Below are positions 416 to 29,412 of a stretch of DNA of 46,890 nucleotides, piece after piece. The notes beneath the pieces were generated by a model. The model saw only the letters and a program-made list of their open reading frames with translations. It was not told the DNA's origin and did not search any database. The translations under genes and the position numbers were made by a program. Position 1 is the stretch's first letter. Every line of letters starts with the position of its first letter. This DNA comes from an uncultured Acidiferrobacteraceae bacterium (lineage in GTDB: Bacteria; Pseudomonadota; Gammaproteobacteria; Arenicellales; UBA868): positions 1 through 46,890 of the forward strand of contig CAJXWH010000003.1 in the NCBI GenBank assembly GCA_913062915.1, written 5' to 3'.

Positions 416-3325
416 GTGAGTAACTCGCGACCCACATTGCTTGACCTTGAGATGCATGGCGATTTCATTCGCCGGCATATCGGCCCAAACGACGATGATG
501 TCGAGTCCATGCTGCGAGAAATTGCTTTGCCGTCCCTCGATAAGTTGATTCAAAAAACGATGCCAGACTCGATTGTGAGTGATCGACCGCTTGATCTTAC
601 TGCGCCACGCAGCGAGCGGGCTGCCACGAGACACCTTCGTCATATGCGACATCGAAACCAGGTTTTTATCTCGATGATTGGCTGTGGTTATCACGGCACC
701 GTGATGCCATCTGTCATCAAGCGCAATGTGCTTGAGAACCCGGACTGGTATACCGCGTACACGCCCTATCAGGCAGAAGTCAGTCAGGGTCGGCTCGAAG
801 TATTGCTTGGATTTCAGCAGATGGTGATCGACCTCACCGGCATGGATATCGCAAACGCCTCGCTCCTGGACGAAGGAACCGCAGCAGCAGAGGCGATGAC
901 AATGGCTCGGCGCATCTCAAAGAGTGAGTCGAGTTGCTTCTTCGTTGACCGGGAATGTCATCCGCAGACCGAGGCGGTAATCCGAACACGTGCGAAATTT
1001 CTAGGATTCGAAGTCGTAGTCGGTGATCCCCACGTCGACCTTGCATCCCGAGATTTCTTTGGAGTGCTTATTCAGTACCCCGCATCTACCGGCGAACTTC
1101 AGGATCTTGAAGATCCGATCGCAACTGCTCATCAACGCGATGCCTTGGCGGTCGTTGCAACAGACCTTCTTGCACTTACCCTAGTAAAACCACCTGGTGA
1201 GATGGGTGCCGATATTGTGCTTGGCAATTCCCAGCGCTTTGGTGTTCCAATGGGATACGGTGGACCTCATGCGGCATTTTTTGCCGCCCGCGATTCCCAC
1301 AAACGTTCGATGCCTGGCCGTGTAATCGGGGTTTCCGTTGATGCGCTAGGTCGACCGGCTTTACGAATGGCGTTACAGACTCGGGAGCAGCACATTAGAC
1401 GAGAAAAGGCCACCAGTAATATTTGTACGGCGCAGGTCCTGCTCGCGAATATCGCGACCTTTTATGCCATGTACCATGGCCCGAATAGACTGAAAACAAT
1501 CGCCAATCGCGTTCATCGAATAACTGGAATTCTTGCGCTCGGCCTCAAGCAGCTCGGTTATACCGTGGACACCAAATTTTTCTTCGATACCTTGAAGGTG
1601 AGTGTCCCAGGTCTTGCCGGCCGCCTGGCTGCGCGAGCGCGTGAATCACGGATCAATCTTCGGGTAATTGATCCCAATTACCTCGGGATTTCACTTGACG
1701 AGACAACCAAGCGGGCGAACCTCGAAACACTGTGGCGTGTCTTCGACACACGTGCCAATTCCAAGCTCGATATCGACACACTAGACAAAGATGTTGGAAC
1801 CAGTATCCCGACGCAATTACAACGCACTTCAACTTATCTCGAACATCCGATCTTCAATCGATATCAATCCGAAACAGAGATGATGCGTTACATGCGCCGT
1901 ACGGCCGGCAAGGACATCAGCCTGGGTCGCTCAATGATTCCACTCGGCTCCTGCACCATGAAGTTGAATGCCACCACCGAGATGATGCCTTTGTCGTACC
2001 GTGACTTCGGCAACCTCCACCCATTCGCACCGCTCGATCAAACTCAGGGATATCAGCAACTTTTTGAGGAATTGGAGGGCATGCTTTGTGAAATTACCGG
2101 ATTTCACGCGCTTTCACTGCAACCGAATGCTGGATCCCAGGGTGAATATGCTGGACTGCTGTGTATCCGCGCCTATCACCAAAGTCTTGGGCAGGAACAC
2201 CGGAACATCTGCCTGATCCCGTCCTCAGCCCACGGCACGAATCCGGCCAGCGCGGTCCTCGCCGGCATGGAAGTCGTCGTGATTGGATGCGACTCCAGTG
2301 GCAATGTCGATCTAAACGATCTTCAAGACAAAGCGAAACAACACCGAGATCGACTGGCCGCGCTAATGATCACCTACCCCTCTACCCACGGCGTTTTCGA
2401 GGAAGCAATCCGCGATATCTGTCAAATCGTGCACGATTGCGGCGGCCAGGTGTACATGGACGGTGCCAATCTAAACGCGCTGGTGGGCATTTGCCGACCT
2501 GGCGAAATTGGCGCCGATGTCGCTCACATCAACCTGCACAAGACTTTTGCCATTCCGCATGGCGGTGGGGGACCCGGAATGGGTCCAATCGGAGTACTTG
2601 CACATCTGGCCCCTTTCCTTCCCGACCACCCCATAGTCGAAGGGATTAATCCTGCGTCCGGCGGTGACCCAACGATCGGCACAGTATCTTCGGCACCATG
2701 GGGCTCGGCCAGTATTCTGCCGATTTCCTGGGCTTATATTGCCATGCTGGGTGCCTCCGGACTGCGTCGAGCCACCGAAATTGCCATACTCAACGCCAAT
2801 TACATCGCCAAACGTCTACAACCTCATTACCCAGTCGTCTACCGTGGCGCCCACGGACTGGTTGCCCATGAATGCATTATCGATCTTCGTCCTATCAAGG
2901 CCGGTACGGAGGTTTCAGTCGAGGACGTAGCAAAACGTTTGATCGACTATGGATTTCATGCGCCAACTATGTCGTGGCCGGTACCCGATACCTTCATGAT
3001 CGAACCCACGGAGAGTGAATCAAAAGAGGAAATTGATCGTTTCGTAGACGCGATGATTGCAATTCGATCTGAAATCGCAGAAATCGAATCCGGAGAAGCT
3101 GATCGAGAAAATAATCTTCTTCGCAACGCACCGCACTCGATCCATCTCTTAACCGAATCAAATTGGAACTACCCGTATCCACGCGAACGCGCTTTCTTTC
3201 CGACTGACAACACCCGTCGGGATAAATACTGGCCGCCGGTTGGGCGGGTCGATAGCGTATCAGGGGACAGGAATCTCGTCTGCACCTGCCCACCCATCGA
3301 ATACTACGAGCAGGAGGCTACGTGA
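416..3325 (+). CDS. gcvP: Glycine dehydrogenase (decarboxylating), P protein, single-chain
   Basis: 969 aa, GTG start; [20 protein letters not shown]-lysine region [41 protein letters not shown]. Confidence 0.97.
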
Positions 3326-4305
3326 CTGAAAACCGTCCTTCGGTCCAGCAACGGGGCATCGACAAGGTTTCCCGAGTGCCTGTCAAATTTCCGATGACTG
3401 ATCGGGCTGAACGGCTGCCAAAACCCAACTGGATTCGAGCACAGTTTCCCGGTACACCTGAAGTTGCACGACTCAAGAAAATCCTGCGTCAAAACCAGCT
3501 GCACACCGTCTGCGAGGAAGCAAATTGCCCCAACCTCGGGGAGTGCTTTGGTAACGGGACCGCGACCTTCATGATCATGGGTGCTCTGTGTACTCGGCGC
3601 TGCCCATTCTGCGACGTTGCGCACGGCCGGCCGTTGCCGCTCGATCCGAACGAGCCCATCGCGCTGACTCGGACGGTATGTGAAATGGGGCTGAGTTACG
3701 TTGTCATTACCTCGGTGGATCGCGACGACCTGCGAGATGGTGGGGCCGGCCACTTTGCCGCCTGCGTTAGCGCGTTGCGCGCCGATTTGCCAGAGATTCA
3801 GATCGAGATCCTCGTGCCTGACTTTCGCGGTAGAGCAGAAGTGGCTCTCGACATCCTGAGTCAATCGCCCCCCAACGTATTCAATCATAACCTCGAGACT
3901 GTGCCCCGACTCTACCGGCGGGTTCGCCCAGGGGCCGACTATGAACACTCTCTTACTTTGCTGCGCCAGTTCGGTGAAAGATGTTCAGGCATACCCACCA
4001 AATCGGGACTCATGTTGGGGCTTGGGGAAACGAGCAAGGAAGTGGAAGCGGTGATGAACGACCTGCGTGACCACGGGGTCCAAATTTTGACCCTCGGCCA
4101 GTATTTGCAGCCAAGCCTCCATCATCTTCCAGTAGAGCGGTATGTGGATCCTGAAGAATTCAACAATTTAGGACTAGCAGGCAAAAAAATAGGATTTTCG
4201 CACGTTGCCTCGGGGCCCATGGTTCGCTCTTCCTACCACGCAGACCAACATGCGCGCGCTGCGAGGGTGGGATTTCAGCCTGTTTTAGGCAATTTGGCGC
4301 CCTAA
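3322..4305 (+). CDS. lipA: Lipoyl synthase (radical SAM)
   Basis: 327 aa, GTG start overlapping the gcvP stop by 4 nt; [12 protein letters not shown] and [10 protein letters not shown] cysteine motifs; [18 protein letters not shown]. Confidence 0.97.
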
Positions 4306-8860: not shown

Positions 8861-10066
8861 TCAGCGCAACACCTGATCGAGGTCTGCACAGAGGTCTTCC
8901 GGATCCTCGAGCCCAATCGACATCCGAAATACCCCTTCCCCCGCCATCTCTCGGTACGCAGCAAGTTGGCTGCCTTCGATCTGGTAGCTCGACGTCACGA
9001 GGTCATCCGTTCCAATCCAGTACACCAGACTTCGATGATGGCCGAGGGAGACTGCGTAGTGAAATACTTTGAGCTCCTTGGCCATCTTAACCGCCACGGT
9101 CTCGCCATTTCGAACCCGAACTGAGACCATCCCGGAGTAGTTCTCCATCTGTGTCCGGGCGAGTTCGTACTGGGGGTGGCTCGGCAACCCGGGATAAAGC
9201 ACAGCGTCGACGCTTGGATGTTGCTCGAGATACGAGGCGACCGCCACCGCGTTCTTCTCGTGTGCTTCCATGCGAATCGGCAAAGTTGCCAATCCCCGCT
9301 GAATCAGCCACGCATTGAAAGGACTGATCGTGCCACCCAGATGGATCAGGCCTTCCGACTCAACCGGCTCCATGGCCTTCGTCGTACCCAGCACTGCCCC
9401 ACCCATTGCATCCCCGTGGCCTCCAATGTATTTGGTCAGCGAATGGATCACATAGTCCGCCCCCAAAGTGAGCGGGCGGGTGGCGATCGGGGAGGCGAAC
9501 GTCGAATCCACAGCAAGTTCCGCGCCTGCACGATGGGCAATGTCGGCAATCGCTGCAATATCAGACAAGCGGAGAATTGGATTGGCCGGCGTCTCAATCC
9601 AGACCAGGCGGGTTTTGGCAGAAACAGCGGCCTCGACGTCGTCCAGCCGGGAGCTATCCACGGGCACGACCTCCACCCCGAGCCGGGGCAGGGAGTTGCG
9701 CACCAGTTCCGCCGTGCCGGGGTAGTTGGTATCGCTGACCACCAACTGATCACCCGGATTTAACAGGCTGAACAGCAAAGCAGACGTGGCCGCCATTCCC
9801 GAGGCAAAACAGATACAGCGCTCCGCCTCTTCCAGCGAGGCCAGCTTCTCTTCCAGTTGGCGAACACTGGGATTGCCCCAGCGACTATAGATGTAGGGGG
9901 AAGCCGTATCACGGTCCACCGCGGAAAATCCGTGCGGCTCGTTCACAACGAACGTGCTCGACATCACGATATTGGGCGCCGACGCACCGGTTAACGCATC
10001 GGGCGCTTCCCCTGCGTGCACCGCCCGGGTGCGTACACCCCGAATCAATTGCTGATCTTTGGCCAT
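8861..10066 (-). CDS. Trans-sulfuration PLP enzyme (cystathionine gamma-synthase / gamma-lyase / methionine gamma-lyase family)
   Basis: 401 aa; YSRWGNPSVRQLEEKLASLE, PLP-lysine SLTKYIGGHGD; exact substrate not decidable by eye. Confidence 0.92.
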   Translation of the reverse strand: MAKDQQLIRGVRTRAVHAGEAPDALTGASAPNIVMSSTFVVNEPHGFSAVDRDTASPYIYSRWGNPSVRQLEEKLASLEEAERCICFASGMAATSALLFSLLNPGDQLVVSDTNYPGTAELVRNSLPRLGVEVVPVDSSRLDDVEAAVSAKTRLVWIETPANPILRLSDIAAIADIAHRAGAELAVDSTFASPIATRPLTLGADYVIHSLTKYIGGHGDAMGGAVLGTTKAMEPVESEGLIHLGGTISPFNAWLIQRGLATLPIRMEAHEKNAVAVASYLEQHPSVDAVLYPGLPSHPQYELARTQMENYSGMVSVRVRNGETVAVKMAKELKVFHYAVSLGHHRSLVYWIGTDDLVTSSYQIEGSQLAAYREMAGEGVFRMSIGLEDPEDLCADLDQVLR

Positions 10067-10219: not shown

Positions 10220-10819
10220 TCAAGCAGGCGCTTCGATTCTTTCGTGCAGCGGGCTGTTGCGAGGGAAATGGGCCAGTAAAAATTCCATCTGGTCGGCCAG
10301 GATTCGTCGACCAGAGAGATAAATGTACTCCGCATGAGAAGGCACGAAGGGCACGGCAATAAGTTCCATTCCCGCTTCCTCCGGTGTCAGGTCCCCCTTG
10401 TGGTGATTGCAACGCTTGCAGGCCGTGACGCAGTTTTTCCAGATGTCCGCACCCCCCCGACTCAGTGCCCGTATATGATCACGGGATAACTCGGATGGCT
10501 GAAACTGCTTGCCGCAGTAGAGGCAAAGATACGCATCTCGCCGAAACAGTGTCTTGTTGTTGAGTGGCGGGGTATAACTGGGGTGTCGCTTCAGGTGCGC
10601 ATGTGAATGGCCGAGGGTGCAAACGATCGAATGAACGTCAAGCGTACTTTGCCTGCCATTTTTTGCGTTGATGCCACCATGAATTGTGAACAGCATCCCG
10701 CCCATAGGATAGAGAACCTGTTTGAGCGCATACAAACGCGCCGCGTCCTGATAGCCGATCCAATCAATTGGCATTCCAGCGACATCGGTTCGAAGAACTC
10801 GCAGACTTAAGTCAATCAT
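10220..10819 (-). CDS. HNH endonuclease
   Basis: KTLFRRDAYLCLYCGKQFQPSELSRDHIRALSRGGADIWKNCVTACKRCNHHKGD (two CxxC pairs plus HNH core); start chosen at ATG 10819 (MIDLSLRV...), ORF track extends to 10906. Confidence 0.88.
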   Translation of the reverse strand: MIDLSLRVLRTDVAGMPIDWIGYQDAARLYALKQVLYPMGGMLFTIHGGINAKNGRQSTLDVHSIVCTLGHSHAHLKRHPSYTPPLNNKTLFRRDAYLCLYCGKQFQPSELSRDHIRALSRGGADIWKNCVTACKRCNHHKGDLTPEEAGMELIAVPFVPSHAEYIYLSGRRILADQMEFLLAHFPRNSPLHERIEAPA

Positions 10820-10915
10820 TCCCTCTCCCTCGCAACGATGCCTGCTACTTTGCGTGAATTCTCGGGTCGAATCAACCAGAGAATGCCCGCCAAACAAGCC
10901 ACCCATGGGACACAG

Positions 10916-12333: not shown

Positions 12334-13176
12334 TTAGATCGGGTCCCGAAGTCCGCTCGATCGATGCAACAGCCAGTCGACGACAAAATTGACCGCCACC
12401 GTCAAGATAGCGATGGCAGCCGCCGGCAGGAGCGGCGTGATGTCACCGTAATTAATCAGCGTGGCATTGTCACGCACCATGGAACCCCAGTCGGCGGTGG
12501 GTGGCTGAATCCCAAGACCCAAAAAACTCAAGGCGGCGATAAACAGAAACACAAAACAAAAACGAAGCCCGAATTCGGCCAGGAGCGGCGCCATGATGTT
12601 CGGCAGAATTTCCTTGCGGATCACCCACCACAGCCCCTCACCGCGCAACCGAGCGACTTCAACATACTCCAAAACCACAACATTCATCGCTGCTGCCCGC
12701 GTGATTCGATACACCCGCGTGCAGTCCAATACTGCGATCACCAAAATTAAAATCGGGATCGAAGTCCCGAGTATGGTCAGGATTAACAACGCAAAAACCA
12801 AGCTCGGGATGGCCATTAAAATATCTACAATTCGACTGATGATGGTGTCGTACCAACCGCCGAGGATCGCAGCCAACATCCCGGTGGCGCCCCCGACTAA
12901 AAATGCAAGAGTTACCGCCGCAAGAGCAATACCGATAGTATTCCTGGCGCCAAATATAAGGCGGGACAGCATATCGCGACCGAGACTATCCGTGCCGAGG
13001 GGATATTTATCTGACCACAATTCGTAAGACGCACCCAGAATCTCCGTCTCACTGTAGGGTGCGATGACCGGGGCAAACACGGCCACTACAAGGTAGGCCA
13101 TAACCACCACCAGCCCCAACTTTGCTGTCAGCGGCACCGCCCAAAACCCTTTAAGCATGCTTTGCATGGCGGTCAA
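12334..13176 (-). CDS. Peptide-type (DppC/OppC) ABC transporter permease
   Basis: 280 aa; GTDSLGRDMLSRLIFGARNTIGIAL, EYVEVARLRGEGLWWVIRKEILPNIMAPLL. Confidence 0.93.
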   Translation of the reverse strand: MTAMQSMLKGFWAVPLTAKLGLVVVMAYLVVAVFAPVIAPYSETEILGASYELWSDKYPLGTDSLGRDMLSRLIFGARNTIGIALAAVTLAFLVGGATGMLAAILGGWYDTIISRIVDILMAIPSLVFALLILTILGTSIPILILVIAVLDCTRVYRITRAAAMNVVVLEYVEVARLRGEGLWWVIRKEILPNIMAPLLAEFGLRFCFVFLFIAALSFLGLGIQPPTADWGSMVRDNATLINYGDITPLLPAAAIAILTVAVNFVVDWLLHRSSGLRDPI

Positions 13177-14129
13177 CGCGGATGCAGCAATCGCGGGTTA
13201 GTAACGATCGCGACGATGTCAGCCAGAAGATTCAACAGTATGTAGACCCCGGCAAAAATCATAGAGCACGCCTGTACCACTGGCACATCTCGCTTCGAGA
13301 CACTGTCCACCAGCAACTGACCAAGGCCTGGATACACGAACACGACCTCGACGATCACCACGCCAACCACAAGGTACGCAAGATTGAGCGCAATTACATT
13401 CACGATGGGGCCCCAAGCATTAGGCAGTGCGTGATGAAAAATCACCCGCATCGGGCGGATCCCCTTGAGATAAGCCATCTCAATGTAATCGCTCGACAGC
13501 AAATTGATGATGGCCGCTCGAGTCATCCGCATCATGTGAGCCACCACCACCAGGGTCAGTGTTGCGGCGGGTAATAACGTTCGAAATAGCTTATCCCCAA
13601 GCGGAAGATCCGTACTGACATTCGAGATACCGGGAAACCATCCTGCTTTGACAGCAAAAAACAGGATCAAAATGTAGGCCACGAAAAATTCGGGGAAAGA
13701 GATCGAAGTCAACGTGAACAAGTTAACTCCACGGTCAAAGATACTGTTCCGGTACAAAGCTGCCAACAACCCCAAGATCAAAGACAACGGCACCGCAATC
13801 GCTGCGGCAAATCCACCGAGAAAAAGGGTATTTGAAAGACGTACGCCCACGAGTTCAGCAATCTCTCGCCTGTTGGCGAGCGACCTGCCCATGTCTCCCG
13901 TCACCATCCCCTTCAACCACTCGATGTAACGTTCGTGCACCGGCCGATCGATGCCGAGTTCGGCGCGAAACACTGCCACCGTTTCTGGGGTCGCCGATTG
14001 GCCCAGGATCGCCTGCGTGATATCCCCAGGCAAAAGTTCGACAATCGAGGCAATGATCAGCGAAACGATAAATAGAGTAAAGAGGCCCAGCGCAAGGCGC
14101 TGGGCCACCACTCTCAACAAATTAAACAA
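13173..14129 (-). CDS. Peptide-type (DppB/OppB) ABC transporter permease
   Basis: 318 aa; RVVAQRLALGLFTLFIVSLI, DYIEMAYLKGIRPMRVIFHHALPNAWGPIVNVI; 4-nt overlap with the downstream permease. Confidence 0.93.
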   Translation of the reverse strand: MFNLLRVVAQRLALGLFTLFIVSLIIASIVELLPGDITQAILGQSATPETVAVFRAELGIDRPVHERYIEWLKGMVTGDMGRSLANRREIAELVGVRLSNTLFLGGFAAAIAVPLSLILGLLAALYRNSIFDRGVNLFTLTSISFPEFFVAYILILFFAVKAGWFPGISNVSTDLPLGDKLFRTLLPAATLTLVVVAHMMRMTRAAIINLLSSDYIEMAYLKGIRPMRVIFHHALPNAWGPIVNVIALNLAYLVVGVVIVEVVFVYPGLGQLLVDSVSKRDVPVVQACSMIFAGVYILLNLLADIVAIVTNPRLLHPR

Positions 14130-14473: not shown

Positions 14474-15235
14474 ATGGTCCAGAGAGTTCTGATCACCGCG
14501 GGTGCGAGCGGAATCGGCCGCGCAATGGCGGATGCATTCTCGGCCCAAGGTGCCACAGTATGGGTTGCCGACGTAGATGAAGCAGCGCTTGATGCCTGCC
14601 CAAAAGAATGGCGACGGGACCAGCTCGATGTAACCGATGAAAAAGCGGTCTCCAAACTCTTTGAGCGATTGCACGCTGACTGGAGTGAACTCAACGTGCT
14701 ATGTGCCAATGCCGGCATTGCTGGCCCAACCGCACCTGTGGAAGAGATTTCACTTACCGAATGGCAGCGCTGTGTTTCCGTTAACCTCGAGGGCGCTTTT
14801 CTCTTTGCCAAATACGCGGCGCCGGTTATGAAAAACCAGCAAAGCGGAGTGATTCTTCTGACTTCTTCGACTGCAGGGCTCTATGGATTTATGCATCGGG
14901 CACCGTACGTTTCGGCCAAATGGGGCGTGATCGGCCTGATGAAGACGCTCGCCATTGAGCTCGGCCCGTTTAATATTCGGGCCAACGCAATCTGCCCTGG
15001 AGGCGTTGAAGGGGCTCGTCTTGACCGCGTGGTAGAGCGGGAAGCCGAGGCAAAAGGCGTGAACGTAAACAAGATTCGCGCGGCTTACACTGCGGGGACT
15101 TCCATGCGAAGCCTCGTCAGCCCAGCAGACATCGCCAACATGGCGGTGTTCCTGGCCAGCGATGGGGCTCGACTTGTCAGTGGGCAAGTGATCGCTGTGG
15201 ACGGCCATACCGAGCACCCCGAGCCTAAGTTTTAG
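14474..15235 (+). CDS. SDR family oxidoreductase
   Basis: 253 aa; TAGASGIG nucleotide-binding motif, catalytic YVSAK, CPGG. Confidence 0.93.
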   Translation: MVQRVLITAGASGIGRAMADAFSAQGATVWVADVDEAALDACPKEWRRDQLDVTDEKAVSKLFERLHADWSELNVLCANAGIAGPTAPVEEISLTEWQRCVSVNLEGAFLFAKYAAPVMKNQQSGVILLTSSTAGLYGFMHRAPYVSAKWGVIGLMKTLAIELGPFNIRANAICPGGVEGARLDRVVEREAEAKGVNVNKIRAAYTAGTSMRSLVSPADIANMAVFLASDGARLVSGQVIAVDGHTEHPEPKF

Positions 15236-15390
15236 CATTGGCTTCTAGCATGATGCGAAATTATCCCGCTCAAAATCCCAAAAAAGTCGCTGCCCAATAC
15301 AAGCACTATCCAATCGGGGGAAGAATCTAGCAAAGCAGTCACACCACAATTTGAACATTAATCAATTCAACGACAACGGAGCACAATTTC

Positions 15391-16497
15391 ATGTCTATGC
15401 CCTATCTCACGCCGGCCATTCGCCTTCGCAGTACGCCCTTTTCCCGGCGGGTAATAGCCGCCGGCGCGAAAGCCTATACGGTCTACAACCACATGCTATT
15501 GGCTTCCTTCTTTCGCTCGGTCGAAGAGGATTATGCGCACCTCAAGAGAGCCGTTCAGGTGTGGGATGTGTCGTGCGAGCGCCAGGTCGAGATCATCGGT
15601 CCCGACGCACTGCGGCTGGTGCAGCTAACGACCCCGCGGGATTTGTCTCGAATGGCGGATGATCAGTGCTGTTATATCCCTATGGTCGATGAAAACGGTC
15701 ACATGTTAAATGACCCGATTGCTATCAAACTCGCAGATAATCGCTACTGGATCTCACTTGCCGACACCGACATGCTCTATTACTTTAAAGGTCTTGCCAG
15801 CGGTTTCGGTCTTAATGCCAAAGCGTTCGAACCCGACGTTTCTCCACTCGCGATCCAAGGGCCCAAAGCGGACCAACTGGTGGCTCGTGTTTTTGGACAG
15901 GAAGTTGTCGACACTAAGTTCTTTCGATACAAGACTATCAATTTTCAGGGCCAGAAAATGATCATTGCACGCTCCGGCTGGTCGCACCAGGGGGGATTCG
16001 AACTCTACCTGGACGGTTCGGAATATGGAGAACCGCTCTGGGACCAGTTGTTCGAAGCCGGCGAAGACCTCGACGTTCGTGCAGGCGGCCCTAACTTGAT
16101 CGAGCGAATCGAGGCGGGGCTTTTGTCCTACGGCAATGACATTACGATCGACACCACACCGTTCGAGGCCGGGCTTGGCAACTACTGTAACCTGGATACG
16201 GCAACCGACTGTCTCGGACATGAAGCGTTACTGACGCAACAAGACCCAAGTCGCCAGATTCGATCAATTTCCATTGACGGACCGTCGATCTCTGCCATCA
16301 CAAAATACTGGCCACTCAAGGACCGTGAACGTCACGTGGCAGGCCATATCTCCTCGGCCGCCTGGTCTCCCGATTTTGAAACCAACGTCGCCATTGGCAT
16401 GGTCCATGAAACACACTGGACACCTGGCACCGAACTCACCGTTGAAACCGAAAACGGTGAGCGAACCGCCACGGTCAGAGACAGTTTCTGGATTTGA
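15391..16497 (+). CDS. GcvT-family THF-dependent methyltransferase resembling dimethylsulfoniopropionate demethylase (DmdA-like)
   Basis: 368 aa; RLRSTPFSRRVIAAGAKAYTVYNHMLLASFFRSVEEDYAHLKRAVQVWDVSCERQVEIIGPDALRLVQLTTPRDLSRM and VSPLAIQGPKAD...ARSGWSHQGGFELY closely recall DmdA sequences; substrate not proven. Confidence 0.75.
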   Translation: MSMPYLTPAIRLRSTPFSRRVIAAGAKAYTVYNHMLLASFFRSVEEDYAHLKRAVQVWDVSCERQVEIIGPDALRLVQLTTPRDLSRMADDQCCYIPMVDENGHMLNDPIAIKLADNRYWISLADTDMLYYFKGLASGFGLNAKAFEPDVSPLAIQGPKADQLVARVFGQEVVDTKFFRYKTINFQGQKMIIARSGWSHQGGFELYLDGSEYGEPLWDQLFEAGEDLDVRAGGPNLIERIEAGLLSYGNDITIDTTPFEAGLGNYCNLDTATDCLGHEALLTQQDPSRQIRSISIDGPSISAITKYWPLKDRERHVAGHISSAAWSPDFETNVAIGMVHETHWTPGTELTVETENGERTATVRDSFWI

Positions 16498-16510: not shown

Positions 16511-17377
16511 GTGAACCAGACAGCGGAACGAACTGCGAGGCCGCGGCGGAGTTTTATTTTCTCGCCGGGCCTCAAGCCAGACATGTTTCCAAAAGCGCTG
16601 GCCTCGGGGACCGATATTGTCTGCATAGAGCTCGAGGATGGGATCGCGCCGAAAGATAAGCAGCAGGCCCGTGAACACGCACTGGCTTTGTTCGCTACAC
16701 CGCAGGCCGATGATGGAATTGAACGGATCGTACGCATCAACTGCCTTCGGAGTGCGTTCGGCCTGGCAGATGTCCAGGCCGTGCTCGATACCCATACGCC
16801 ACCGCCCGGATTGATGTTACCCAAAGTGATGGCGCCGGATGAGATCACCTGGCTGGACGACCTCCTGAGCGAGCGAGGTCACAATACACGTTTGCACGTC
16901 ATCATCGAAACGAATGCCGCCCTCGAATCAGCCCACAAAATCGCACGGGCCAGCCCCCGCATTGACGCGCTTTTTTTCGGTGGCATAGATATGGCCGCCG
17001 AGCTGCACTGCCGGAATGCCTGGGAGCCCCTTCTTTATGCCCGCTCGCGCGTGGTTCATGCCGCTGCGGCCGCAGGCGTCGACGTCATTGATGTCCCCTA
17101 CCTGAATCTCAACGATTTGAGCGGCATGGAACGGGAGGCCCGCCTTGCAAGAGAGTTGGGTTTCAGCGGCAAAGGGGCTATTCACCCGAAACAAATTCCG
17201 ATTCTTAACCGAGTATTTACGCCCACCGAGGCCGAGATCGCCGACGCCCGGAAAATTCTCCAAGCGTTCGAGGCGGCGGATACCGGTCTCGTGGTGGTTG
17301 ACGGAAAATTGATTGAAAAACCGGTGGTTCGAGAGATGCGTCGGATCTTGTCGATTGCTGAACGGTTGCCCCGCTGA
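16511..17377 (+). CDS. HpcH/HpaI aldolase / CitE-like CoA ester lyase
   Basis: RSFIFSPGLKPDMFPKALASGTDIVCIELEDGIAPKDK; GKGAIHPKQIPILN; GTG start at 16511 inferred because the longer ORF (16274) runs inside the upstream gene. Confidence 0.88.
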   Translation: MNQTAERTARPRRSFIFSPGLKPDMFPKALASGTDIVCIELEDGIAPKDKQQAREHALALFATPQADDGIERIVRINCLRSAFGLADVQAVLDTHTPPPGLMLPKVMAPDEITWLDDLLSERGHNTRLHVIIETNAALESAHKIARASPRIDALFFGGIDMAAELHCRNAWEPLLYARSRVVHAAAAAGVDVIDVPYLNLNDLSGMEREARLARELGFSGKGAIHPKQIPILNRVFTPTEAEIADARKILQAFEAADTGLVVVDGKLIEKPVVREMRRILSIAERLPR

Positions 17378-17417: not shown

Positions 17418-18653
17418 TTACTGTGGCAGTAATGGTTGCAGCTTCTGATTCGTATCTGCGAGAACATCCGGATCGACTTCCTGACCCGCCCTCGCCAGCA
17501 TTCCTGCGATTCGGATGTCGCGACCGATTTTCGGTCCGATGGAGACGCCGCAAGCCCCAATGATTCGATCACTGCTTAAGTAAAAGTACAAGATACCCTC
17601 TTCCGGTGAATCTCCACGTTTGACACACGACTCGTAGCCTCTTGCGAGGCCGCTCAACTGCAACACGTAGTCATACTGATCCGACCACATCCACGGAACT
17701 TCGTTATAGGCCGCCGACTCCCCGGTCAGATTCTTGCCTGCGTTTATGCCATGGTTTTGGGCGTGCTTCCAGGACTCTAGCCGCATATGCGTGTCGTAAA
17801 GGGGATGATAGAAACTGGCAACATCTCCAGCTGCGTATACGCCGTCGATTGATGTTCGCCCGCACTCATCCGTGACAATGCCGTTGTCAATTCGTATGGG
17901 GCCTTCCTCGAATGCATCCAGGTTTGGCTCGATCCCGATTCCGGCAATGATCAGATCGCAGGTGATTGAATGACCACCGCTCATTTCCACGTCGTAGGTC
18001 GCGCCGTTTGTCGTGACCCGCGAAACCGTCGTGTTCAACTGAATCGCGACACCCGCCTGTTCGTGTCTTTCCTGCACAATGCCTGCAATCTCTGGGGGAA
18101 TAGCTCTGCCCATGAGTTGTGATCCCGCCTCGATTACGGTCACCCATTTGCCAAGCGTTCTCAACGACGCTGCAAGTTCCAACCCGATAAACCCACCGCC
18201 GATGACCAACACCCGATTTCGGGTTTGCAGTTGATCGACGATAGCCTGGCTTTCGGCCATAGTTCGAAGGTAATGGATTTGCTCTGGGGCCAAACCGTCG
18301 ACTGCAAGGACCCGGTTCTTACTGCCGGTAGTAATCAGGAGTCGATCAAATGCTACCGATGAGTGCTGGTCCAACAACAGTTTGCGATTGTGAAAATCAA
18401 CGGACTCCACTTTCCGGCCCAGTTGCAACTCAATCTTATGCTCCTTGTAAAAATCTTGATCAAAAAATACGCAAGACCCCAACGTTTTCTCCCCCCTGAT
18501 ACATTTTTTTGAAAGGGGTGGGCGTTCGTATGGCAACGAACTTTCTTCAGACACGAGTGTCACCCGACAGCTTTGATCCAATGACCGGATCGCTTTGATG
18601 GCATTAGCAGCAGCTTGACCGCCCCCTAGGATGACGATATTTTTATCGGTCAT
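17418..18653 (-). CDS. FAD-dependent oxidoreductase, ferredoxin/rubredoxin reductase type
   Basis: 411 aa; two dinucleotide motifs (VILGGGQAAANAI; VLVIGGGFIGLELAASL), YAAGDVASF, C-terminal reductase domain. Confidence 0.9.
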   Translation of the reverse strand: MTDKNIVILGGGQAAANAIKAIRSLDQSCRVTLVSEESSLPYERPPLSKKCIRGEKTLGSCVFFDQDFYKEHKIELQLGRKVESVDFHNRKLLLDQHSSVAFDRLLITTGSKNRVLAVDGLAPEQIHYLRTMAESQAIVDQLQTRNRVLVIGGGFIGLELAASLRTLGKWVTVIEAGSQLMGRAIPPEIAGIVQERHEQAGVAIQLNTTVSRVTTNGATYDVEMSGGHSITCDLIIAGIGIEPNLDAFEEGPIRIDNGIVTDECGRTSIDGVYAAGDVASFYHPLYDTHMRLESWKHAQNHGINAGKNLTGESAAYNEVPWMWSDQYDYVLQLSGLARGYESCVKRGDSPEEGILYFYLSSDRIIGACGVSIGPKIGRDIRIAGMLARAGQEVDPDVLADTNQKLQPLLPQ

Positions 18654-27041: not shown

Positions 27042-28280
27042 TCATGGTTGATTTCTTTCGGAATCTCTAAACACAGCATCAATTTCCTCGTTGCTCATTC
27101 CAACTTCGGTCAACACCTCGCGACCGTGCTCACCAAGCCGCGGCTGGGCGCAACGAACGGGGAGCGATCGACGGTCGAAACGATACGGCGTGTCTGGAAT
27201 TTCAAGGGTTCCCTCGGTCGGGTGCTCAAAAGAACGAAAGAACCCCACCGCATTTAAATGGGGATCACGACGAAGATCCGCCAAAGAGTTAACCGGACCC
27301 GAAGGAATTTCGGCTTGCTCAAAAAGTGCTAACCATTCTGTAGTGCTTCGCGTTGAGATGACTTCACTTGCTATCTTGTACAACACATCGATATTGCGGC
27401 TACGCTCAAGCATTGTGACGAAACGTGGGTCCTCCACATAGTCGGGCATACCTGCAAGCTTCCAAAACGACCGCCACTGTCGGTCCGTATACGCAAGCAG
27501 GCAAAGGTATCCGTCCTTGGTTTTGTGTGGACGACGATGGGGCGACAGCGCTCTCACATATCCGGCCTTCCCCTCTTTGGGTTTGAACGTCTCACCATAC
27601 TGATGCTCTACCAAGTTGAAGCTAGCCATCCCTTCAAACATGGAACACTCTAAGTAGGTACCCTTGCCCGTGCGAAGGCGTTTAACATACGCTGCCACCA
27701 GACCGCCTGACGCGATCAGGGCTGAGTTTTTGTCAGCGATTATGGATGGCACCAGTTGTGGCAAACCGTCGCGCTCCCCAAAGAGCCCGGCGATTCCGGA
27801 CTGACCCTGGATAACATCATCATAAGCAGGACGTCCCCCATAAGGACCGTCTTCGCCGTAACCGTGAAGGCCGCCATAGATAATACTGGGGTTGGACTGC
27901 AACACCGCATCTGGGCTGAAGCCGAGCTCTGCGATCTTTTGTGGCCGGATGTTGTGCACGAACATATCGGCCGTCTCGATCAGACGCCACAACGCCGTTC
28001 GCGCCGTCTCACGTTTCAGATCAAGCACGATACTGCGCTTATTCCGGTTACAGCCCAGATAAAGTGCCGACATCCCGGGGTTACGGGCAGGCCCAATCAC
28101 CCTTGTCATGTCACCCTCGGGTGCCTCGACTTTGATCACATCTGCGCCAAAGTCGCCTAGAATTTGAGTCGTATACGGGCCGAAGATAACTGTGGTCAGA
28201 TCGAGTACTCGAACGCCTGAAAGCGGCAAATCGTTCGTATCCGTAGTGCGACTATCCACGCTGCGAAAACCGTCGGCCAA
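27042..28280 (-). CDS. CaiB/BaiF family (class III) CoA-transferase
   Basis: 412 aa; PLSGVRVLDLTTVIFGPYTTQILGDFGADVIKVEAPEGDMTR; RNKRSIVLDLKRE; single-domain length. Confidence 0.94.
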   Translation of the reverse strand: MADGFRSVDSRTTDTNDLPLSGVRVLDLTTVIFGPYTTQILGDFGADVIKVEAPEGDMTRVIGPARNPGMSALYLGCNRNKRSIVLDLKRETARTALWRLIETADMFVHNIRPQKIAELGFSPDAVLQSNPSIIYGGLHGYGEDGPYGGRPAYDDVIQGQSGIAGLFGERDGLPQLVPSIIADKNSALIASGGLVAAYVKRLRTGKGTYLECSMFEGMASFNLVEHQYGETFKPKEGKAGYVRALSPHRRPHKTKDGYLCLLAYTDRQWRSFWKLAGMPDYVEDPRFVTMLERSRNIDVLYKIASEVISTRSTTEWLALFEQAEIPSGPVNSLADLRRDPHLNAVGFFRSFEHPTEGTLEIPDTPYRFDRRSLPVRCAQPRLGEHGREVLTEVGMSNEEIDAVFRDSERNQP

Positions 28281-29412
28281 CCAGTGCGGAAGTAATATTC
28301 ACTTTCTGAATGTCGATTGCGCCGCCCGCGATACCCCAGCCCCAAGCATCGCGCATCTTTTGTTCGATGGGGTACTCACCTGAGTATCCGTAAGCGCCCA
28401 TTAATTGCATTGCGGTGCTGGTCACTTCACGCGTAATTTCGTTGGCAAAACACTTGGCAACCGAACTCTCTCCGATGGAGGGCAGTCCCTGTTCTGCGTT
28501 CACCACCGCGCGGTAGAGAAGCAGACGGGACGCATCGAGTTTCATCTTCATTTCCGCGAGCTGAATCTGCACGGCCTGGAAATCCACCAACGCCTTTCCA
28601 AACTGCTGGCGATCCTGCACGTAAAGTAGCACGTAATCAAAAGCAGACTGCGCACAAGCAAGGCTCATCGTGGTATTGCCACAGCGCTCGAGGTCAAAAG
28701 CCTCCATCAACTGCTTAAATCCTCCGGCTGAAATGATCAGATTACCGATAGGCACCTCGACATTGTCGAAAAACATATCTGCACTCGGAATGCCGCGAAA
28801 TCCCATGTGCTGCTCTGGCTTACCGAAGGTAAACCCAGTCCGATCTTTCTCGACCAACACAGCTCCGATCCCTCGAGCCCCCGGTTCATCAGACATCCTG
28901 CAGTAAACCACATAGGCATCTGCATGCCCGGCCCCTGAACACCATCGCTTCTGACCTTTAACAATGACAGTGTCTCCCTCGATTCTTGCGGTCGTCGTTA
29001 GGTCAGTCAGTGCCGATCCTGCGTTCGGCTCCGACATCGAAACCGCAATCATCATGTTGCCGGAACATACATTAGGCAAGACGCGAAGCCGCAATTCTTC
29101 CGGTGCAAAATGAGCAATCGCCAGCGACGGACCGAAACAAGATTCAAAGACCGGAAACGCCACCGCGATTGAAATTTTGGCAAGTTCTTCAAGGACGAGC
29201 ACAGCATCCAAATGCTTCGCCCCCGCGCCACCATATGCCTCCGGTAGATTGATGCCCAAAAAACCCATCTCGGCAAAACGCTGCACGATCTCAGGTCCGA
29301 CCGGCTCGTCATTTTTCTCTATAATTTTCGCGACACCTGTGAGTTCAACTTCGGCAAATCGACGCGCACTCTCCTGCAGCGCTCGCTGTTCTTCGCTCAA
29401 TGAAAAATCCAA
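28252..29412 (-). CDS. Acyl-CoA dehydrogenase
   Basis: 386 aa; MDFSLSEEQRALQESARRF, VSMSEPNAGSALTDL, DRQQFGKALVDFQAVQIQLAEMKMKL. Confidence 0.92.
   Translation of the reverse strand: MDFSLSEEQRALQESARRFAEVELTGVAKIIEKNDEPVGPEIVQRFAEMGFLGINLPEAYGGAGAKHLDAVLVLEELAKISIAVAFPVFESCFGPSLAIAHFAPEELRLRVLPNVCSGNMMIAVSMSEPNAGSALTDLTTTARIEGDTVIVKGQKRWCSGAGHADAYVVYCRMSDEPGARGIGAVLVEKDRTGFTFGKPEQHMGFRGIPSADMFFDNVEVPIGNLIISAGGFKQLMEAFDLERCGNTTMSLACAQSAFDYVLLYVQDRQQFGKALVDFQAVQIQLAEMKMKLDASRLLLYRAVVNAEQGLPSIGESSVAKCFANEITREVTSTAMQLMGAYGYSGEYPIEQKMRDAWGWGIAGGAIDIQKVNITSALVGRRFSQRG

Follow-up and report, generated by a model that had tools for sequence, protein, structure and literature searches.

A 2017 review still confined demethylation of the algal sulfur compound dimethylsulfoniopropionate (DMSP) to Alphaproteobacteria; SAR92 joined the known DMSP demethylators through a study of 2023 (PMC10746254). 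In that study, SAR92 DmdA proteins sharing 35-40% identity with ratified DmdAs restored MeSH production in a dmdA mutant of R. pomeroyi, and a homologue at 21-24% did not (PMC10746254). Two other kinds of DmdA serve as references for this family: the enzyme of Candidatus Pelagibacter ubique (P. ubique), represented by structures 3TFH, 3TFI and 3TFJ, and the acuI-linked Roseobacter enzymes (SPO1913 type), whose gene precedes acuI, an order reported in R. pomeroyi (PMC5395565). The fold and folate-binding site of these demethylases are shared by GcvT and by the T-protein domains of DMGDH/DMGO, which carry out another type of reaction.

In this work, we analyzed a 46,890-nt stretch of DNA (hereafter the window; contig CAJXWH010000003.1, assembly GCA_913062915.1) from an uncultured Acidiferrobacteraceae bacterium of GTDB lineage Arenicellales; UBA868, which carries a dmdA-like gene at positions 15391-16497. 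We propose, with a probability of about 0.82, that this uncultured marine gammaproteobacterium encodes an intact, true DmdA, one that belongs to the Roseobacter-like branch and acts on DMSP and THF. Like the SAR92 enzymes (mBio 2023), it would be a gammaproteobacterial DMSP demethylase; unlike them, it is Roseobacter-like, and its gene lies outside a dmdA-acuH-dmdB-dmdC cluster of the SAR92 kind.

Materials and methods

DmdA-like sequences were gathered from named genomes, 109 genomes of the order to which the window belongs, 299 genomes of its phylum and 289 alphaproteobacteria. Two maximum-likelihood trees were built; for the second, four rows that were long or distant were left out. Pocket residues were judged from a PeerJ paper and from conservation, and the evidence on the host comes from a MAG assembly that is 87% complete.

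Results

An intact dmdA gene

The features needed to follow the locus are these:

15378-15381, + strand: GGAG, a likely ribosome-binding site, 9 nt upstream of the dmdA ATG
15391-16497, + strand: dmdA, predicted THF-dependent DMSP demethylase of 368 aa (GCV_T and GCV_T_C), identified by model score, fold, trees and residues
16501-16504, + strand: GGAG, a likely ribosome-binding site for the lyase
16511-17377, + strand: CitE/RipC-like acyl-CoA C-C lyase of the HpcH/HpaI family, 288 aa, GTG start, a conserved partner of dmdA in the family

The reading frame is uninterrupted from the ATG at 15391, and the strand opposite to it is interrupted by stops. The first-pass annotation, made from the letters alone, had placed the frame exactly there, and the two blocks that it quoted as DmdA-like are present letter for letter at residues 15-68 and 195-206. 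Against the NCBIfam equivalog model for DMSP demethylase (NF009133), the product scored 553.8 bits over residues 2-368 (E=1.6e-166; cutoff 410), staying below the cutoffs of two curated GcvT models (149.7 bits against 300, and 113.1 bits against 235.85) and of the TMAO-demethylase model (153 bits against 1100). The best PDB match was P. ubique DmdA (E=2.5e-104), with GcvT next (7e-30). An AlphaFold model built with 45 relatives as input reached a pLDDT of 94.4; its top fold match was 3TFH (TM-score 0.96, rmsd 1.4 A), while the best GcvT gave a TM-score of 0.88. The protein resembles P. ubique DmdA in length class, fold and two-domain build.

An ordinary GcvT or a paralogue of the DMGDH/sarcosine-oxidase type would share this fold and both Pfam domains, and gcvP and lipA lie at the start of the contig. 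However, the GcvT scores fall below their cutoffs, the protein lacks a FAD domain and is placed inside the DmdA clade, homologues of the GcvT and DMGDH types are present elsewhere in the genome, and identity reaches 21-25% with GcvT and 15-23% with DMGDH/DMGO; we find this explanation hardly credible. GcvT and DMGDH identities were rejected on tree placement and model scores, and those of DMGDH and the sarcosine oxidase alpha subunit also because the T-protein domain is not fused to a FAD oxidoreductase, GCV_T and GCV_T_C being the only Pfam domains in the 368 aa. The earlier preference for DmdA over such paralogues was therefore borne out by model scores, PDB matches, fold and trees.

Phylogenetic placement

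The phylogeny that the first-pass annotation had called for put the protein inside the DmdA clade, together with P. ubique and acuI-linked Roseobacter DmdA (support 99/94 in tree 1 and 95/94 in tree 2), and within it the protein grouped with Roseobacter DmdA (99/96 and 99/98, respectively). The Roseobacter enzymes are the nearest characterised kind, with a mean identity of 61%, against 45% to P. ubique DmdA; these two reference sets are 46% identical to each other. The closest relatives (67-71%) come from marine gammaproteobacterial MAGs, several of them deposited as Acidiferrobacteraceae. In the window's order, DmdA above the model cutoff was found in 67 of 109 genomes.

Gene order links the Roseobacter sequences to actual DMSP metabolism: an AcuI-type acryloyl-CoA reductase gene follows many Roseobacter dmdA genes, and some share an operon with DmdC-like, DmdD-like and DmdB-like genes (L031, L069). 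This operon, seen in Roseobacter/Hoeflea, runs AraC-type regulator, DmdC-like, DmdD-like, DmdB-like, dmdA, and is present in part in L037 and L044; Roseovarius mucosus has it together with a second dmdA (L074). Since the acuI-linked loci mostly lack dmdB, dmdC and dmdD neighbours too, adjacency to these genes is not a defining feature of DmdA.

A lyase gene paired with dmdA

Where the Roseobacter gene precedes acuI, that of the window precedes a CitE-like lyase gene, absent from the first-pass annotation and found in this follow-up, whose GTG start lies 13 nt past the dmdA stop. The lyase is closest to the RipC citramalyl-CoA lyase, with 3qll as its best PDB match, and it fails the RipC model NF038242 (269 bits against a cutoff of 375). 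Among the 28 loci of the family carrying dmdA of the window's type (type I), 20, from four genera, carry the lyase gene 3' of dmdA in the same orientation. The distance is at most about 75 nt in three genera (g1, g155 and g159) and 2.4-2.6 kb in the fourth (g158), in which genes for a class III CoA transferase and an acyl-CoA dehydrogenase of 390 aa are intercalated in the order dmdA-caiB-acad-citE. The other eight comprise five loci of g158, in which, judging from contig extent, the lyase is probably missing due to short or end-limited contigs, and the three of g156, a genus with dmdA outside any lyase pairing. In other families, orthologues of the lyase adjoin a DmdA-like gene of 43% identity (L250, L251) or a divergent GcvT-like gene (L243, L248), or have neither as a neighbour (L246, L247, L252). 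Hence, the pairing is recurrent and not obligatory. In L243 (8163-10339) and L248 (3123-5299) the lyase gene lies directly 3' of that for the GcvT-like protein, which has 394 aa and finds its best match, at a score under the cutoff, in the C-terminal half of TMAO demethylase.

Gene neighbourhood

Further features flank the pair:

8861-10066, - strand: Cys/Met-metabolism PLP enzyme, methionine gamma-lyase/cystathionine gamma-synthase like (conserved at 78% in the sister species, L020)
12334-14129, - strand: two ABC permeases of the Opp/Dpp type, kept next to dmdA in L020, with relatives at 45-49% in the vicinity of dmdA in g158
14474-15235, + strand: SDR-family oxidoreductase upstream of dmdA, in the same place only in L020 (65%)
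17418-18653, - strand: ferredoxin/flavoprotein NAD reductase, beside dmdA-citE in L020 only

About a dozen window genes, on both sides of dmdA, are syntenic with the sister species, and the contig is therefore unlikely to be chimeric at dmdA. The PLP enzyme could conceivably handle methanethiol. On the reverse strand, an acyl-CoA dehydrogenase gene overlaps that of a class III CoA transferase (27042-29412); the dehydrogenase is nearest to 3-sulfinopropanoyl-CoA desulfinase, below cutoff, and the module may possibly serve sulfur-compound or dicarboxylate metabolism. Two other observations concern a 228-aa protein with an HNH-endonuclease-like motif encoded amid metabolic genes (10220-10906, - strand), for which no counterpart was found at that place in L020, and the glycine cleavage system parts gcvP and then lipA at 416-4305 (+ strand).

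Genes for the steps after demethylation

As had been noted before, no dmdB, dmdC or dmdD/acuH adjoins dmdA in the window: next to the gene we found neither an AMP-forming DmdB-like ligase nor a DmdD match, and the acyl-CoA dehydrogenases of the window have 386 aa, none being of the 600-aa DmdC type. Elsewhere in its own genome there are a DmdC-like protein of 598 aa (48%), a second one at 41%, and two DmdB-like ligases (50% and 48%). Nothing exceeded the cutoff of the NCBIfam model for MMPA-CoA ligase (best 424 of 822), against which a Roseobacter dmdA-linked ligase also reached only 305. In this 87%-complete genome, a DmdD orthologue was not found (best 30%, among many generic crotonases), nor were a BCCT transporter or a SBP56 methanethiol oxidase, absences that weigh against the DMSP reading.

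These findings bear on a proposal that would add to the main reading rather than replace it, namely that dmdA-(caiB-acad)-citE constitutes a non-orthologous DMSP demethylation operon, with the CoA transferase standing in for DmdB, the 390-aa acyl-CoA dehydrogenase for DmdC, and the lyase for DmdD, at a later C3 intermediate. It agrees with the gene order in g158, which equals the order of the steps, with the co-linearity of dmdA and citE in 20 genomes of four genera, and with the lack of a DmdD orthologue in the host genome. Conversely, caiB and acad lie outside the operon in the window's own genus, DmdB-like and DmdC-like proteins are encoded elsewhere in the genome, dmdA occurs apart from the lyase in g156 and citE away from any dmdA, and no known CitE-family reaction fits methylthioacryloyl-CoA directly, so that we consider the proposal improbable.

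Residues and substrate

The P. ubique-like and acuI-linked sets have 120 invariant positions in common, of which the window DmdA retains 104 and outgroup T-proteins 61%. W197, E204, Y206, S122 and N107-D108, shared with P. ubique DmdA, are all present. At these positions, the altered pocket that, with placement outside the DmdA clade, would have told against the first-pass reading was thus not seen. DmdA residues W171, E178 and Y180 have been published in alignment numbering (PMC7487153). We infer that these correspond to W197, E204 and Y206. In the alignment, the counterpart of D108 in T. maritima GcvT is Asp96, which we take to be the catalytic Asp of that enzyme. Position 197 is W in the window protein and in P. 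ubique, whereas it is Y in the acuI-linked Roseobacter proteins; therefore, this column is no guide to function. All 24 type-I sequences share five fixed changes (R10I, G91D, I98M, I123L and K199H); G91D, I98M and K199H, which also set the protein apart from P. ubique DmdA, fall in conserved stretches, with K199H two residues after W197.

These last three subclade-fixed changes, one of them so close to W197, would be compatible with a DmdA-clade enzyme shifted to another methylated onium compound (glycine betaine, DMSHB, gonyol or dimethylsulfonioacetate), in which case the neighbouring lyase and CoA enzymes would degrade the carbon skeleton. The constant coupling to a CitE-like lyase, foreign to the textbook DMSP demethylation pathway, would fit as well, as would the DMGDH-like gene close to dmdA at some loci of g158 (L009, L011, L019, L023). 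However, the 61% identity to Roseobacter DmdA and the retention of W197, E204, Y206 and N107-D108 speak against a shift, the far more divergent SAR92 DmdAs still act on DMSP (PMC10746254), and our search of the window DmdA for a betaine-specific signal found none, with no pocket feature shown to favour a trimethylammonium group. We regard such a shift as unlikely. DMSP is the best-supported substrate, since identities of 61% and 45% exceed the 35-40% of the working SAR92 DmdAs, and the enzyme most likely converts DMSP and THF to MMPA and 5-methyl-THF, a substrate, product and pathway that we infer from sequence.

Other DmdA types in the order

A second type of DmdA (type II), about 48% identical to the window protein, is nested in the same clade (L142, L143, L145, L149, L150, L152, L157, L159, L164, L166, L167, L172 and L187). 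In most of these loci, the operon runs FMN-dependent 2-hydroxyacid dehydrogenase, TPP enzyme, transthyretin/HIUase-like protein, dmdA. To judge by these neighbours, the type-II substrate is probably something other than plain DMSP; one guess would be a 2-hydroxy acid precursor, for example DMSHB. Because this operon is unlike DMSP demethylation, membership of the DmdA clade alone may not fix the substrate, and it is for the type-II operon and the unexplained lyase that the probability for DMSP was held at the value given above.

In another family of the order (L169, L174), dmdA is followed by a PLP Cys/Met-metabolism gene, which in L174 is an O-acetylhomoserine sulfhydrylase, and by genes for an alpha/beta hydrolase, a 3-hydroxyacyl-CoA dehydrogenase and a DmdB-like protein; in L169, a DmdC-like gene also precedes dmdA. 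This cluster could route methanethiol into methionine. The company of DmdC-like, sulfhydrylase and DmdB-like genes supports DMSP demethylation in the order.

Discussion

The family, fold, tree placement, residue conservation and gene order of dmdA are established here by computation. To find a DmdA in such a marine host is for the most part unsurprising: the family is a known one, and the unexplained part is the gene that accompanies it. In the mechanism that we propose, DmdA would bind THF in its T-protein fold and transfer one of the two S-methyl groups from DMSP to the N5 position of THF, yielding MMPA (3-methylmercaptopropionate) and 5-methyl-THF. MMPA would then probably be activated and oxidised by the DmdB-like and DmdC-like enzymes from other parts of the genome or, alternatively, by CoA-transferase and acyl-CoA-dehydrogenase enzymes such as those of the window itself. 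The lyase, probably carried on the same message as dmdA, would come in at a later step, with an acyl-CoA formed during breakdown as its substrate.

The lyase gene is consistently paired with dmdA and was previously untied to DMSP use; in the titles and abstracts searched, we found no report linking a citramalyl-CoA-type lyase or a CoA transferase to DMSP. As an alternative MMPA route, dmdA-caiB-acad-citE is speculative. We likewise give little credence to the broader view in which the lyase is dedicated to partnering THF-dependent demethylases and this gene set forms an undescribed route for MMPA or a related sulfonium compound, with CoA transfer, dehydrogenation and C-C cleavage replacing DmdB, DmdC and DmdD.

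What is new is that a Roseobacter-like DmdA, together with a nested second type, is spread through an uncultured marine gammaproteobacterial order, a distribution that bears on the interpretation of dmdA counts in ocean metagenomes. Taken together, the lyase pairing and the type-II operon suggest that not every gene of the DmdA clade feeds the textbook DmdBCD pathway.
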